Assembly (NCBI GenBank): GCA_027037705.1
Contig: JALVYZ010000456.1
Coordinates: 1 to 5,971, forward strand
Length of the DNA stretch: 5,971 nucleotides
Source of the DNA: a bacterium
Lineage (GTDB): Bacteria; DYJV01; JALVYZ01
Direction: 5' to 3'
Below the pieces are notes generated by a model. That model saw only the letters and a list, made by a program, of their open reading frames with translations. It did not search any database and was not told the DNA's origin. Each line of letters opens with the position of its first letter. The stretch's first letter is position 1. The position numbers were made by a program, and so were the translations under genes. Positions 1 through 4,954 of the stretch are shown one piece after another.

Positions 1-553
1 TTGTAAAGTTAATGATATTGATGTTGAAAAAGCTATTGTTAAAACAGATAGAGGGGAATTAAATTACGATATTTTAGTAAATGCAGCTGGCTTATGGGCA
101 GATGAAGTTGCAAAAATGTGTGGAATTGAAGGATTTAAAATTGTGCCCTATAAAGGCGATTATTATGCTTTAAATGAAGATACAGTTAATAGCATGATTT
201 ATCCCGTCCCATTAGATAAAAAAGGAGCTCTTGGAGTTCACTTTACAAAAACAGCTTACAATGAAATCTGGATTGGGCCAACAAGCAAGGAACATAATAA
301 AAAAGACGATTATGATGTTTATGAAAAAAAAGATATTTTTTTAAAAGCGTGTGAAATATATTTAAAAAATTTTAATCCTGATAAAATAACTGAAGGTTTT
401 TCTGGAAATAGACCAAAACTCTTTTTTCAGGGAAAGTTTATTTATGATTTTATGATTTTCAGGAGAAAAAATGTTATCCATTTACTTGGAATTGATTCTC
501 CTGGATTAACTGCAGCTCCAGCAATTGCAAATTATGTAGCTGATTTAATTTGA
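1..553 (+). CDS. FAD-dependent oxidoreductase, LhgO/GlpA-like (DAO family), 3' part only
   Basis: The reading frame is open from base 2 to the TGA at 551-553 and gives the last 183 residues. The N-terminal FAD-binding Rossmann region lies outside the window. Visible family marks are [11 protein letters not shown] (about residues 27-37), the end of the FAD-binding half in DAO-family enzymes; PYKGDYYAL (49-57); IYPVP and LGVHFT in the substrate half; and the C-terminal [13 protein letters not shown] that closes the FAD site. This pattern fits L-2-hydroxyglutarate oxidase-like proteins (COG0579 type), which oxidise a 2-hydroxy acid with FAD. The true substrate cannot be read from this fragment, and a glycerol-3-phosphate dehydrogenase-like or other role is possible. 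The protein ends straight after the DAO domain, with no BFD-like [2Fe-2S] tail. The stop is 11 bases before the purH start and overlaps its Shine-Dalgarno region, so the two are probably co-transcribed and translationally coupled. Confidence 0.85.
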
Positions 554-560
554 AGGAGGA
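553..560 (+). promoter_or_regulatory. Shine-Dalgarno of purH
   Basis: AAGGAGGA lies five to six bases before the ATG at 565 and overlaps the last base of the preceding stop codon. It fixes the purH start at 565 and suggests that ribosomes finishing the oxidoreductase gene can re-initiate here. An almost identical arrangement (AAGGAGGATAAA, then the start codon) precedes purS. Confidence 0.8.
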
Positions 561-564
561 TAAA

Positions 565-1152
565 ATGAAATTAAAAAAAGCTATTATTAGTGTAAGTGAT
601 AAAACAGGAATTGTTGATTTTGCCAAAGAATTAAAAAATTTAGGAGTAGAAATATTATCCACAGGTGGGACAGCAAGAATTTTAAAAGAAAATGGAATAA
701 ATGTTACAGAAATTTCAGAATATACAGGATTTCCAGAAATAATGGATGGTAGAGTTAAAACATTACATCCAAAAATTCATGGTGGAATTTTGGCATTAAG
801 AGATAATCCAGAACATATGGAAAAAATTAAAGAATTAGGGATTGAACCTATTGATATGGTTATTGTAAATCTTTATCCTTTTGAAAAAACAATAGAAAAT
901 CCTGAATCAACTTTTGATGATGCAATTGAGAATATTGATATTGGTGGACCTACTATGATAAGAGCTTCTGCAAAAAATTTCAAATTTGTTGTTGTAATTA
1001 TTGATCCAGAAGATTATAAAAAAGTATTGGAAGAACTTAAGGTCAATGGAGATGTCTCTTATTCCACAAGACTATATTTAGCTCAAAAAGTTTTTGAAAG
1101 AATGAGCCAATATGATAATGCAATAACAAAATATTTAAAAAAATATCTTTAA
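565..1152 (+). CDS. purH: Stand-alone IMP cyclohydrolase (PurH N-terminal domain only)
   Basis: This 195-residue protein matches the MGS-like IMP cyclohydrolase half of bifunctional PurH, which closes the ring of FAICAR to IMP in the last step of de novo purine synthesis. Conserved blocks appear in order: ISVSDKTG (8-15), STGGTA (32-37), [16 protein letters not shown] (54-69), HGGILA (72-77), VNLYPFE (101-107), [10 protein letters not shown] (121-130), IRASAKN (132-138) and YDNAI (183-187). Residues matching the known active site are R63, K65, Y104, D125 and K137. Usual PurH is about 450-530 residues; here the AICAR formyltransferase half is absent. The stop falls at the domain boundary and no formyltransferase sequence follows, so this looks like a natural single-domain enzyme (sometimes called PurJ or PurH1) and not a broken gene. 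The ATG at 565 is preferred over the in-frame TTG at 550 because AAGGAGGA (553-560) precedes it at proper spacing and the protein then begins like the family. Confidence 0.93.
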
Positions 1153-1160
1153 AAAGAGGA
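1141..1160 (+). repeat. 20-base direct repeat, copy 1 (purH 3' end)
   Basis: These bases match 3071-3090 at 19 of 20 positions. In both places the frame reads K-Y-L-stop and continues into a Shine-Dalgarno sequence (AAGAGGA here, AGGAGGA in the second copy). The similarity ends at both edges. The two copies bracket the toxin-antitoxin pair plus purD. It may be a scar of recombination between gene ends, or chance likeness of two lysine-rich C-termini followed by ribosome sites. Confidence 0.55.
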
Positions 1161-1165
1161 AAAAG

Positions 1166-1366
1166 ATGAAATCTTTAATAAAAAATGATAAAATTATTTT
1201 AGAATTCCAATTTAATAAAATTGACGAGGATTTAATATCATTATTATCATCAATTGAGATTGGAGAAAAAAGTCAAGCTTCAGAAAATGATATTTTAGAT
1301 TTATCCAATGAAATTAAAAAAGAATGGTGGAAAAAAAATAAAAGGAATTTTATTTTAGATGAATAA
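1166..1366 (+). CDS. Small antitoxin-like protein paired with the PIN toxin
   Basis: A 66-residue acidic/basic protein begins at ATG 1166 behind the Shine-Dalgarno AAGAGGA (1154-1160). It has no signal peptide or membrane segment. The N-terminal third could form beta strands (KIILEFQF, 9-16). The rest is helix-prone and ends in a charged stretch with two tryptophans, EIKKEWWKKNK (49-59). The C-terminal helix carrying a WW/W-K pattern resembles small proteins encoded just before PIN-domain toxins, whose C-terminal arms wrap the toxin and block its active site. I do not recognise a DNA-binding fold such as AbrB, RHH or Phd, so autoregulation is not evident. Its stop lies inside the toxin gene (8-base overlap, 1359-1366), the usual antitoxin-first, translationally coupled layout. 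The antitoxin role is inferred from size, order, overlap and the tail motif, not from a family match I can name. Confidence 0.68.
   Translation: MKSLIKNDKIILEFQFNKIDEDLISLLSSIEIGEKSQASENDILDLSNEIKKEWWKKNKRNFILDE
1359..1366 (+). other. 8-base antitoxin/toxin gene overlap
   Basis: The bases ATGAATAA hold both the toxin start codon (1359-1361) and the antitoxin-like stop codon (1364-1366) in different frames. Overlaps of this kind usually couple toxin translation to that of the antitoxin and keep the toxin from being made in excess. Confidence 0.8.
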
Positions 1367-1787
1367 ATTAAAAATTGTTTTGGATAGTAATATAATATTT
1401 TCTGCATTATTAAGCACGAATAATAAATTCAAATTCATTATTTATGATAAAAGATTTAAATTTTTTAGTTGTAATTTTCTTTTTACAGAAATTTTTAAAA
1501 ATAAAGAAAAACTTTCAAATATTTCAAAGTTAACTGAAAAAGATTTATTAATCCAAATGTCAAATATCTTTTCAAAAATTCATTTTATTCCAGAAGAATT
1601 TATTCCAAAAGAGATTTATAATAAAGCTTATAATTTGTGTAAAAACATTGATGAAAGCGACACTCCTTTTATTGCATTAGCAATTTTCCTCAATGCAAAA
1701 TTATTAACAGGTGATATGAAATTAGCAAATAAACTAAAAACATTGACAATATCTGTAACAGATATTTTAGAAAATAAATTAAAATAG
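1359..1787 (+). CDS. PIN-domain ribonuclease toxin (VapC-like)
   Basis: This 142-residue protein is one PIN domain, the usual length for VapC-type toxins, which are Mg2+-dependent ribonucleases that cut tRNA, rRNA or mRNA. The four acidic active-site positions are visible: D9 in IVLDSNIIFSALL (6-18), E44 in FTEIFK, D98/D101 in IDESDTPFIALA (97-108) and D119 in TGDMKLA (117-123). The residue set is complete, so the enzyme is probably active. The start ATG at 1359 overlaps the end of the antitoxin-like gene by 8 bases. A modest Shine-Dalgarno, AAAGGAA (1341-1347), lies eleven bases upstream inside that gene. Lines in this gene count about 21% G+C against about 34% in nearby purD lines, which suggests a different origin or relaxed codon choice. 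The closest fit is the 'putative toxin component, PIN family' group near VapC; the exact subfamily is not certain. Confidence 0.85.
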   Translation: MNKLKIVLDSNIIFSALLSTNNKFKFIIYDKRFKFFSCNFLFTEIFKNKEKLSNISKLTEKDLLIQMSNIFSKIHFIPEEFIPKEIYNKAYNLCKNIDESDTPFIALAIFLNAKLLTGDMKLANKLKTLTISVTDILENKLK

Positions 1788-1791
1788 AAAT

Positions 1792-1798
1792 GGGGGGA
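1792..1798 (+). promoter_or_regulatory. G-rich Shine-Dalgarno of purD
   Basis: Six G in a row followed by A (1792-1798) stands three bases before the ATG at 1802. It can pair with the anti-Shine-Dalgarno but differs from the AAGGAGG form used by purH and purS. It excludes the ATG at 1790, whose own G is the first base of the run, as the main start. Confidence 0.6.
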
Positions 1799-1801
1799 AA
1801 T

Positions 1802-3082
1802 ATGAAAATATTAGTTGTTGGAGGAGGGGGAAGAGAACATGCTTTATGCTGGGCATTAAATAATAGCAACAAAGTTACAAAAATTTACTGTGCACCTGGA
1901 AATGCAGGGATCTCTGAAATTGCTGAGTGTGTAAATATTGGAGCCGAAGATATAGAAAATTTATGTAAATTTGCAAAGGAAAACAGCATAGATTTAACTG
2001 TTGTTGGACCAGAAGCTCCCCTTGTTAAAGGGATTGTAGATATTTTCAATGAAAATGGATTAAAAATCTTTGGAGCAGATAAAAAAGGAGCTCAACTTGA
2101 AGGTAGTAAAGTATTTGCAAAGGAATTTTTTAAAAAATATAATATCCCATCAGCTGATTTTAAAATTTTTGATAATGCAGATGAAGCTTTAAAATATGCA
2201 GAAGCCATTGAATATCCTAAAGTTTTTAAAGCAGATGGTCTCGCTGCAGGGAAAGGTGTTATTGTTGCTAAGACTAAAGATGAAGGAATTGAAGCTATAA
2301 AAAAGATAATGATAGATAAAAAATTTGGTGATGCTGGAAATAGGATGGTAATTGAAGATTTTCTTGAAGGAGAAGAAGCTTCATTTATTGCTGTTCTTGA
2401 TGGAAAGACTTTCATTCCATTTGATTCTTCTCAGGACCACAAACCTGTCTTTGACAATGATGAAGGACCAAACACAGGTGGTATGGGAGCTTATTCTCCA
2501 GCGCCAGTTGTCAATGAGACAGTTTTTAACAAAATTATTGAAAAAGTTTTAATTCCAACTATAAATGGATTGAAAAATGAAGGAATTGAGTATAAAGGAG
2601 TTTTATATGCAGGATTGATGATAAAAGATAACGAACCTTATGTACTTGAATATAACTGTAGATTTGGAGATCCTGAAACTCAACCATTACTTGTTAGACT
2701 TGATTACGATTTTTGTGAAATTATCGAAAATGCAATTGATGGAAATCTCGAAGAAATAAAAGATAATGTTAAATGGAAGGATGAAGCTGCTGTCTGTGTA
2801 GTAATGGCTTCAGGTGGCTATCCAGAAAGTTACAAAAAAGGATATGAAATTAAAGGACTTGATGAAGTAAAAAATATGGAAAATGTAGTTGTTTTTCATG
2901 CAGGCACAAAAAAAGAGGGAAATAAAATAGTAACTTCAGGAGGAAGAGTTCTTGGCGTTACAGCTCTTGGCAAAACAATTCCTGAGGCAATTGAAAATGC
3001 ATACAAAGCAGTAAGCAAAATCTCATGGACAGATGTTCATTACAGAAAAGATATTGGTAAAAAAGCATTGAAATATCTTTAA
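1802..3082 (+). CDS. purD: Phosphoribosylamine--glycine ligase (GAR synthetase)
   Basis: PurD joins glycine to 5-phosphoribosylamine with ATP to make GAR, the second step of purine synthesis. The 426-residue length is normal. Domain order is complete: the N-terminal Rossmann-like domain opens with VVGGGGREHAL (5-15) and includes VVGPEAPL (67-74). The ATP-grasp core has KADGLAAGKGV (143-153), SSQDHKP (209-215), GPNTGGMGAYSP (222-233) and EYNCRFGDPETQ (283-294). The C-terminal domain has SGGYP (337-341), GGRVLGV (380-386) and HYRKDIG (413-419). I chose ATG 1802 over the in-frame ATG at 1790 because the G-rich ribosome site sits between them and family members begin at the M-K-I-L-V-V-G strand. 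It starts 14 bases after the PIN toxin stop. In Bacillus subtilis purH and purD are direct neighbours; here the toxin-antitoxin pair separates them. Confidence 0.97.
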   Translation: MKILVVGGGGREHALCWALNNSNKVTKIYCAPGNAGISEIAECVNIGAEDIENLCKFAKENSIDLTVVGPEAPLVKGIVDIFNENGLKIFGADKKGAQLEGSKVFAKEFFKKYNIPSADFKIFDNADEALKYAEAIEYPKVFKADGLAAGKGVIVAKTKDEGIEAIKKIMIDKKFGDAGNRMVIEDFLEGEEASFIAVLDGKTFIPFDSSQDHKPVFDNDEGPNTGGMGAYSPAPVVNETVFNKIIEKVLIPTINGLKNEGIEYKGVLYAGLMIKDNEPYVLEYNCRFGDPETQPLLVRLDYDFCEIIENAIDGNLEEIKDNVKWKDEAAVCVVMASGGYPESYKKGYEIKGLDEVKNMENVVVFHAGTKKEGNKIVTSGGRVLGVTALGKTIPEAIENAYKAVSKISWTDVHYRKDIGKKALKYL

Positions 3083-3090
3083 AAGGAGGA
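3071..3090 (+). repeat. 20-base direct repeat, copy 2 (purD 3' end)
   Basis: This is the partner of 1141-1160, differing only at the fifteenth base (G here, A there). It covers the last three sense codons and stop of purD and the ribosome binding site of purS. Confidence 0.55.
3082..3090 (+). promoter_or_regulatory. Shine-Dalgarno fixing the TTG start of purS
   Basis: AAAGGAGGA ends four bases before the TTG at 3095-3097 and begins within or next to the purD stop codon. A near-consensus site compensates for the weak TTG codon and is the main reason for placing the purS start here. Confidence 0.75.
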
Positions 3091-3094
3091 TAAA

Positions 3095-3346
3095 TTGAAG
3101 GTTAAGGTATATGTTTCTTTAAAAAAAGGAGTGCTTGATCCACAGGGAAAAGCAGTTTTAAGCACTTTACATTCATTAAAATACAATGAATTTAAAGATG
3201 TTAGAGTTGGAAAATTTTTTGAAATTGAAATAGCAGACAATATTAAAGATAAAAATTTAATTGAACAAAAGGTTAAAGAAATATCAGAAAAAGTGCTTTC
3301 AAATCCAATTATTGAAAGCTACACATATGAAATAGTGGAGGATTAG
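3095..3346 (+). CDS. purS: FGAM synthetase subunit PurS
   Basis: An 83-residue protein, the usual PurS length. PurS is a small alpha/beta protein that, with PurQ and the small form of PurL, makes formylglycinamidine ribonucleotide synthetase, and it helps pass ammonia from PurQ to PurL. Family marks are the first strand [20 protein letters not shown] (2-21, with the DPQGKAV loop) and [11 protein letters not shown] near residues 37-47. The start is TTG at 3095, supported by AAAGGAGGA (3083-3090... spacing five bases) and by the expected length; there is no ATG near by. It follows the purD stop by 12 bases and ends one base before purQ, a pairing found in many purS-purQ-purL operons. Confidence 0.95.
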
Positions 3347-3347
3347 A

Positions 3348-4034
3348 ATGAAATTCGGAGTTGTTAGATTTCCAGGTTCAAATTGTGATGATGATTGCTA
3401 TCATGTGGCAAAAAATGTATTGGGGATTGAAACTGACTATTTATGGCATAAAGATACAAAACCACTAAGTGAATACTCATGCATTATAATCCCAGGAGGC
3501 TTTTCTTATGGTGATTATTTAAGACCTGGTGCTATTGCCAAATTTTCACCAATAATCTCAAGTATTAAAGAGTTTGCTGATAAAGGAGGATTAATTATTG
3601 GAATTTGTAATGGCTTTCAGATTTTACTTGAATCAGGATTACTTGAAGGTGTTTTAATTAGAAATAAAAATTTAAATTTTATTTGTAAAGATGTTTATAT
3701 CAAAGTTGAAAATAAAAATACTCCTTTCTCAAAAACAGAAAAAAACATTTTAAAAATACCAATTGCTCATAAAGAAGGATGTTTTTATTGTGATGAAAGC
3801 TTGCTTAATAAATTAAAAAGCAATAATCAAATTGTATTTAGATATTGCGATGAAAATGGAGACATTACAGAAAAAGTTAATCCAAATGGATCATTATATT
3901 CGATTGCTGGGATATGTAATGAAAAAGGAAATGTACTTGGAATGATGCCACACCCTGAAAGATGTTCAGAAAAAATTCTTGGGAATGAAGATGGTAGACA
4001 AATTTTTCAATCAATTATAGATTATTTATCATAA
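3348..4034 (+). CDS. purQ: FGAM synthetase glutaminase subunit PurQ
   Basis: A 228-residue class I glutamine amidotransferase. It releases ammonia from glutamine for PurL, which converts FGAR to FGAM. Visible marks are [13 protein letters not shown] (5-17) at the N-terminus, the oxyanion segment [16 protein letters not shown] (49-64), the nucleophile elbow GICNGFQ (85-91) with C87, and PHPER (201-205) with catalytic H202 and E204. The triad is complete and the length is normal for PurQ acting with PurS. The ATG follows the purS stop by one base. Its Shine-Dalgarno, GTGGAGGA (3335-3342), lies within the last purS codons, so translation is probably coupled, as suits subunits of one complex. purL does not follow; the next gene on this strand is an ABC ATPase beyond a 191-base gap. 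The purL gene must be elsewhere. Confidence 0.97.
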
Positions 4035-4160
4035 AAACTCTTTTCTATATTTTTTCTTAATAATGTCAGAAACACAAAAAATATCAATCAGCCTTGCCAC
4101 ATTAATTAAACCATTAATAATTAACTCTTTAAGATAAATAAATATAAATTTCCTAAACAT
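4029..4160 (-). CDS. Possible 43-residue minus-strand small protein, tail-to-tail with purQ
   Basis: The minus strand reads from ATG at 4160-4158 to TGA at 4031-4029. The peptide has a hydrophobic N-terminal half ([18 protein letters not shown], residues 5-22) and a basic tail (KKKYRKEF). Its stop overlaps the last purQ sense codon. In its favour, the minus strand here carries 22 G and 5 C, the G-over-C bias expected on a coding strand, while the + strand genes show the opposite local bias. Against it, there is no Shine-Dalgarno before the ATG, I recognise no family, and an open frame of this length can occur by chance in such A+T-rich DNA. It could be a real small gene, the remnant of a lost minus-strand gene, or part of an untranslated RNA. 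Confidence 0.25.
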
Positions 4161-4225
4161 TATATTCTATCAATATAAAATTATTATCTTGAAAAACTTT
4201 TTATATTTTGAGATATATTTTTAAT
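4035..4225. other. Intergenic gap between purQ and the ABC ATPase gene
   Basis: This is the only gap of note in the window (191 bases). I find no G+C-rich hairpin with a T tail that would end the purine operon. The strongest pairing is an A/T-only seven-base stem, TTAATTA (4102-4108) with TAATTAA (4118-4124), which is too weak to call. The left and middle parts overlap the possible minus-strand ORF. The right end contains promoter-like elements for the ATPase gene. I see no riboswitch, tRNA or repeat array. Confidence 0.6.
4189..4217 (+). promoter_or_regulatory. Candidate promoter of the ABC ATPase-miaB pair
   Basis: TTGAAA (4189-4194) is followed after 17 bases by GATATA (4212-4217), a fair match to the housekeeping -35/-10 pattern. 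Transcription would begin about 4224-4226, at the ATG of the ATPase gene, giving a leaderless message. A+T-rich DNA produces such matches easily, so this rests mainly on position: it lies in the only gap, just before a gene that lacks a Shine-Dalgarno sequence. Confidence 0.4.
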
Positions 4226-4954
4226 ATGATAGAGATTAAAAATATAACAAAAAAGTTTGGGGAATTTACAGCTGTTAACAATGTTTCATTTAAAATTGAA
4301 AAAGGTAAGGTTTTGGCGCTTGTTGGAGAAAGTGGAAGTGGTAAAACAACTCTTTCAAAATTAATAATAGGAATTGAAAAACCAGATTCTGGAAAAATTT
4401 TTTATAAAGGTAAAAATATTTTTGATTACACAAAAGATGAGTGGATTTCATTTAGAAAAAAAACTCAATATATATTTCAAGACCCATATTCTTCTTTAAA
4501 TCCAAGATTAAAAATTGGAACTTCAATAAAAGAACCACTTTTAATCCATAAAAATATAAAAAATAAAAAAGAAAAAGTTCTGAAAACAATGGAAGAATGT
4601 GGCTTAAAAAAAGAGTTTTATAACTATTATCCACATCAGCTTAGTGGAGGACAACGTCAGAGAGCTGTAATAGCAAGAGCACTTGTAATAAATCCTGAAT
4701 TTGTTATAGCAGATGAACCTGTTTCGTCATTAGATGTATCAGTGCAGGCTCAAATTTTAAATTTATTGAAACAGATGCAAAAAAAGTATAATATGACAAT
4801 GTTATTTATTACCCATGATTTTTCAGTTGTGAGGTTTATTGCAGACAAAGTTGCTGTTATGAAAAACGGTAAAATTGTAGAAGTAAAAGAAGCTGAAGAT
4901 TTATTTAAAAATCCTGAAAGTGACTATACAAAACAGTTATTAAAGGCAGTATAA
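4226..4954 (+). CDS. ABC transporter ATPase, DppF/OppF (peptide/nickel) type
   Basis: A 242-residue nucleotide-binding subunit expected to power an inner-membrane importer. The motifs are complete: Walker A GESGSGKTT (34-42), Q-loop at Q85 within FQDPYSSLNPR (84-94), signature LSGGQRQR (139-146), Walker B VIADEP (160-165, D163/E164), D-loop SSLD (167-170) and switch H197 in THD. The FQDP-SSLNPR sequence and the end LFKNPESDYTKQLLKA mark the oligopeptide/dipeptide/nickel family. Full OppF/DppF proteins run to about 320 residues; this one stops near the start of the usual C-terminal oligopeptide region, so it is a short form. No permease or binding-protein gene is in the window, so the substrate is unknown. 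I chose ATG 4226 over the in-frame TTG at 4208 because the family begins near M-I-E-I-K-N. No Shine-Dalgarno is evident for either start. miaB begins one base after its stop. Confidence 0.9.
   Translation: MIEIKNITKKFGEFTAVNNVSFKIEKGKVLALVGESGSGKTTLSKLIIGIEKPDSGKIFYKGKNIFDYTKDEWISFRKKTQYIFQDPYSSLNPRLKIGTSIKEPLLIHKNIKNKKEKVLKTMEECGLKKEFYNYYPHQLSGGQRQRAVIARALVINPEFVIADEPVSSLDVSVQAQILNLLKQMQKKYNMTMLFITHDFSVVRFIADKVAVMKNGKIVEVKEAEDLFKNPESDYTKQLLKAV

Follow-up and report, generated by a model that had tools for sequence, protein, structure and literature searches.

Why does a two-gene pair with the look of a toxin-antitoxin (TA) module stand between purH and purD, inside a run of purine genes? The window, by which we mean the whole stretch of 5,971 nucleotides analysed here, is one complete contig (G000:C456) of an assembly of 496 contigs. 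All genes named in it lie on the + strand, in the order oxidoreductase fragment, purH, 66-aa ORF, PIN ORF, purD, purS, purQ, ABC ATPase gene, miaB. The initial annotation had placed a pair at 1166-1787, on the same strand as the flanking purine genes and 13-14 bases away from them, and these coordinates proved exact: the purH stop codon (1150-1152) is followed after 13 bases by the 66-aa ORF, which overlaps the 142-aa PIN ORF by eight bases, and another 14 bases separate the end of the PIN ORF from the purD start at 1802. A purH gene indeed adjoins the pair, but it encodes the IMP cyclohydrolase half only. The main features are:

2..553, + strand: FAD-dependent oxidoreductase resembling L-2-hydroxyglutarate oxidase, of which the contig, beginning inside the gene, holds just the C-terminal part (PF01266 DAO, 6.4e-25; NF008726, 1.2e-28)
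565..1152, + strand: purH, 195 aa, coding for the IMP cyclohydrolase half alone (MGS domain and the first 58 positions of PF01808)
1166..1366, + strand: antitoxin-like gene, 66 aa, with the C-terminal motif WWKKNKRNF (family found upstream of PIN_2 genes)
1325..1351, + strand: antitoxin C-terminal segment W54-W55...N58-K59...F62, proposed toxin-binding helix (conserved; AlphaFold helix 40-62)
1359..1787, + strand: PIN_2 toxin-like gene, 142 aa (PF10130, 6.9e-25)
1788..1801, + strand: 14-base gap with a GGGGGG ribosome-binding-like run ahead of purD (seen in the sequence)
1802..3082, + strand: purD (TIGR00877, 566 bits)
3095..3346, + strand: purS (PF02700, 5.1e-29)
3348..4034, + strand: purQ (TIGR01737, 320 bits)

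The match of the 142-aa protein to PF10130 (PIN_2) scored 88.3 bits, where the cut-off is 22.4, and covered positions 1-116 of the 133-position profile. The four acidic residues noticed at the outset are present (D9, E44, D98 and D119), together with D101. PF10130 was matched by all 43 aligned toxins, and in the toxin alignment (42 aligned sequences) D9, N11, E44, D98 and D119 were invariant. The DNA pattern by which the loci were collected (described below) forces D9 and N11; it leaves E44, D98 and D119 free, and the invariance of these three residues is independent conservation. The structural model of the toxin was confident (pLDDT 94, pTM 0.88), and its best matches among solved structures were PIN proteins, many of them VapC from VapBC complexes (Z of about 11-12, 9-16% identity). 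As modelled, the toxin shares the PIN fold with VapC; the fold by itself is no proof of toxicity. PF10130 occurred in four of the 290 genomes in the set of relatives. Two other PIN_2 genes met in that search, L034 and L036, lie downstream of small proteins that are Phd-like in one case and RHH-like in the other, as read from their sequences. PIN toxins usually have several antitoxin types. The WW-type partner in the window is apparently one of several types paired with PIN_2 toxins.

Searches of the 66-aa protein against Pfam and NCBIfam gave nothing above chance, and none of 42 antitoxin members had a convincing match in the two collections, the AbrB, RHH, Phd and HTH antitoxin families included. 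The profile search proposed in the initial annotation thus returned no Pfam or NCBIfam model. The protein belongs to a conserved, antitoxin-like family that is linked to PIN_2 genes and has a C-terminal WWxxNKxxF motif as its hallmark. The family appears to be uncatalogued, in the sense that neither Pfam nor NCBIfam holds a model of it; the antitoxin was found in one of 241 genomes searched. The AlphaFold model of the antitoxin was modest (pLDDT 79, pTM 0.36) and consists of a beta-hairpin, a helix spanning residues 21-35 and a second helix (40-62) bearing the WW motif. A structure search of the PDB with this model gave no significant match. Judged by Pfam, NCBIfam and the modest model, no DNA-binding domain could be recognised in the antitoxin. 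Kinship with DUF2281 (PF10047) was considered but found no support, the best single-member E being 0.14 and hhalign giving a probability of 3.5% against a thin three-member alignment. In the same genome, a gene at G000:C142:435-611 (L217) matches DUF2281 and is a possible second antitoxin-type gene.

A tblastn search identified a PIN_2 gene on a Runella plasmid (31% identity), which is preceded by a 67-aa ORF ending in the same C-terminal motif. A DNA pattern composed of the antitoxin motif and the PIN start matched once in the window, once in the Runella plasmid and never in shuffled sequences. It forces antitoxin residues W54, W55, N58 and F62, for which it therefore provides no independent conservation. 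Across about 85,000 species genomes the pattern had at least 118 matches, 80 of which were listed; these 80, the window and the Runella plasmid made up the 82 loci examined. Genuine pairs of a small ORF and a PIN gene were present at 70 of the 82 loci, and in 50 of these 70 the two ORFs overlap by 4 bp. Most pairs come from Bacteroidota; others belong to records whose titles name Spirochaetes, Acidobacteriota, Thermodesulfovibrionales and Aminicenantes.

As a control for pattern bias, the toxin profile alone was searched in 20 host genomes. Five extra copies (L226, L228, L250, L252 and L254) had a clear antitoxin-profile match directly upstream, and since these pattern-free copies have the same partner, the linkage of the two genes is independent of the pattern. 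In the same search the PIN_2 gene at L253 was preceded by a weak antitoxin-profile match, and at L248 and L249 a small ORF in a comparable position closes with a degenerate W..YK..F-type motif. The sequences of these last three loci, where the PIN_2 genes are more distant, suggest a wider antitoxin superfamily. The PIN_2 match and the linkage of the small-protein family to PIN_2 genes across several phyla support the identification of the pair as a toxin-antitoxin system.

The toxin ORF was short in 18 loci, 14 of which have ample downstream DNA. In these 14 (L040, L058, L060, L073, L075, L077, L080, L081, L083, L084, L088, L096, L117 and L118) it is interrupted by in-frame stops or frameshifts, or truncated, next to an antitoxin ORF that is open; the records of eight of the 14 are not labelled as MAGs. 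Decay of the toxin beside an open antitoxin would fit a costly toxin, with the proviso that the pattern itself demanded an intact antitoxin end and that there was no matched control for antitoxin decay.

The junction was compared in relatives, as the initial annotation had advised. In G001, a genome of the same order from another family, no gene separates purH from purD, which share 4 bp, and neither the toxin nor the antitoxin was found in that genome. At seven outgroup purH-purD junctions purD directly follows purH, with gaps of 10-39 bp and without the pair. Because of these absences we rejected the pair as an ancient, fixed component of the operon; by parsimony they point to a derived pair, inserted in the lineage of the source genome. 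With G001 as the one genome of the order compared, the insertion can be dated only loosely. The missing half of PurH, AICAR transformylase, is encoded by a separate gene (G000:C340:20703-21686). The split is common to both members of the order compared (the two halves lie on C44 and C42 in G001), and therefore the insertion of the pair was not its cause.

The pair had been described as much richer in A+T than the genes around it, and the figures agree: the G+C content is 19.7% in the 66-aa gene and 19.5% in the toxin gene vs 26.5-33.0% in the other genes of the window. This is not evidence of foreign origin, which we rejected because GC3 is native. With values of 13.6% (44th percentile) and 13.4% (42nd percentile), respectively, the two genes fall inside the genome background formed by 153 ORFs on other contigs of the assembly (mean 15.4%, s.d. 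5.8%). The A+T richness of the pair resides in codon positions one and two, i.e. in amino-acid composition, and its low G+C therefore says nothing in favour of recent acquisition.

No terminator was found around the pair. Promoter-like sites numbered 33 in the whole 540-4230 region, little above chance (23.6 ± 4.7 in shuffled sequences), and the 100 bases that precede the 66-aa ORF had none on the + strand. These results agree with the earlier impression that no separate promoter or terminator is seen around the pair, and from the gaps of 13-14 bases, the lack of a terminator and the near-chance number of promoter-like sites we infer that the pair is co-transcribed with the purine genes. The window contained no riboswitch or other Rfam family, and only short, chance-like repeats, with no mobile-element ends, were detected around the pair. 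An origin from phage was rejected: tblastn gave no match in 50,697 phage records, and two scans of viral contigs with the toxin revealed no relative. A single viral match of the DNA pattern lay inside an unrelated long ORF and was attributed to chance.

The reading that we favour, with a probability of roughly 75%, is that the pair is a type II, VapBC-like module that was inserted between purH and purD, is co-transcribed with them and has been kept as addictive, probably selfish cargo. The 142-aa PIN_2 protein would be the toxin, presumably a Mg-dependent RNase, and the 66-aa protein a labile antitoxin made just ahead of it from the same message. The stable nuclease would be kept inactive by its labile partner, which would probably insert its C-terminal helix, with its basic and aromatic residues (WWKKNKRNF), as a plug into the acidic active site. 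Riding on the purine-operon transcript, the module would be addictive, as loss of the pair or uncoupling of the antitoxin would leave free toxin. It could also be sheltered, as its deletion could harm the flanking biosynthetic genes. Addiction together with shelter between needed genes is the simplest account of the presence of the pair.

The initial annotation had offered two options, a tie between purine status and growth arrest or a passive cargo, and the second describes the data better. In the first, repression by purines would let the labile antitoxin fall, the stable toxin would slow growth, and the site between purH and purD would have been selected for regulation. Tight embedding without a terminator or a clear promoter does imply that the dose of the pair probably follows the operon. 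But members of the same family stand between gap and pgk (L044, 4488-5107), between glmU-like and glmM-like genes (L107, 1540-2180), between rlmB and rarA (L098, 6601-7229) and between genes for an SDR and an NCS2-type permease (L043, 3521-4161, and L073), all gene names being read from the sequences. A family found between unrelated housekeeping genes argues against a specific role in purine metabolism. Among the matches listed, both neighbours were co-directional at 28 of the 54 loci with both flanks readable, and at L065, L045 and L053 the pair is alone between opposed genes. Copies in the wider family, moreover, often have room for a promoter of their own, the median upstream gap to a co-directional gene being 118 bp. 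The purine link found no support here, in a window without a riboswitch and with the same site lacking the pair in relative G001, and we regard it as very improbable. If purine coupling were true, growth arrest would be tied to a metabolite; the evidence is not in favour. We are less sceptical, while still considering it unlikely, of a TA class parasitic on operons, in which an antitoxin devoid of a DNA-binding domain and of autoregulation repeatedly lands between co-transcribed housekeeping genes and borrows their transcription; if this were so, the toxin dose in the window would track purine demand, but incidentally.

Two further explanations give the pair a use for the host. Had it been domesticated, the PIN nuclease would process host RNA, for example by tuning the purine transcript, with the small protein as its regulator. 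Both ORFs are intact and their GC3 is native, as expected after long residence and amelioration, or after transfer from a similar donor genome; but the patchy distribution of both genes among the genomes searched and the frequent breakage of the toxin elsewhere make domestication improbable. The pair could instead be a chromosomal decoy (anti-addiction) system or a phage-defence module, protecting against related plasmids or phages, a notion to which the homologous pair on a mobilizable Runella plasmid lends some colour. It is the least probable of the alternatives, since none of the proteins in the window had a PADLOC match, the window has no defence neighbours, and neither the phage records nor the two viral-contig scans contained a related locus. 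What all these data leave standing best is the cargo module described above.

These results point to a widespread antitoxin-like family partnering PIN_2 proteins, whose members, such as that of Runella, are annotated only as 'hypothetical protein' because the family has no Pfam or NCBIfam model. With several TA pairs located between core biosynthetic genes, it can also be asked whether such placement protects a module from loss.

Among known systems, type II VapBC is similar in that a PIN protein with an acidic site is encoded after a small, overlapping partner gene, and VapC proteins were among the nearest solved structures; in contrast to VapBC, the best family of the toxin in the window is PIN_2 (PF10130) and not PF01850, and its antitoxin matches no Pfam or NCBIfam antitoxin family. 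The pair on plasmid pSP2_3 of Runella sp. SP2 (WP_122934734/WP_122934735) shares the two-gene layout, the C-terminal motif of the antitoxin and 31% toxin identity, whereas it is located on a mobilizable plasmid outside any biosynthetic operon and has a 4-bp overlap. The closest pairs among the matches listed were those of the MAGs DS4.bin58 (L065) and WY2.bin12 (L114); the former has 58% toxin and 44% antitoxin identity but stands alone between oppositely oriented genes. A search of open-access papers returned nothing that deals specifically with this toxin family or with a TA pair inside a purine operon. A parallel in unrelated protein families was described by Makarova and colleagues (2009, PMC2701414): the lysine operon of Thermus thermophilus HB8 contains an MNT-HEPN module that is missing in HB27, again a TA-like insertion among biosynthetic genes that a relative lacks. 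TA pairs in biosynthetic operons have thus been reported before; the novelty here lies in the family of the antitoxin and in the site that the pair occupies.
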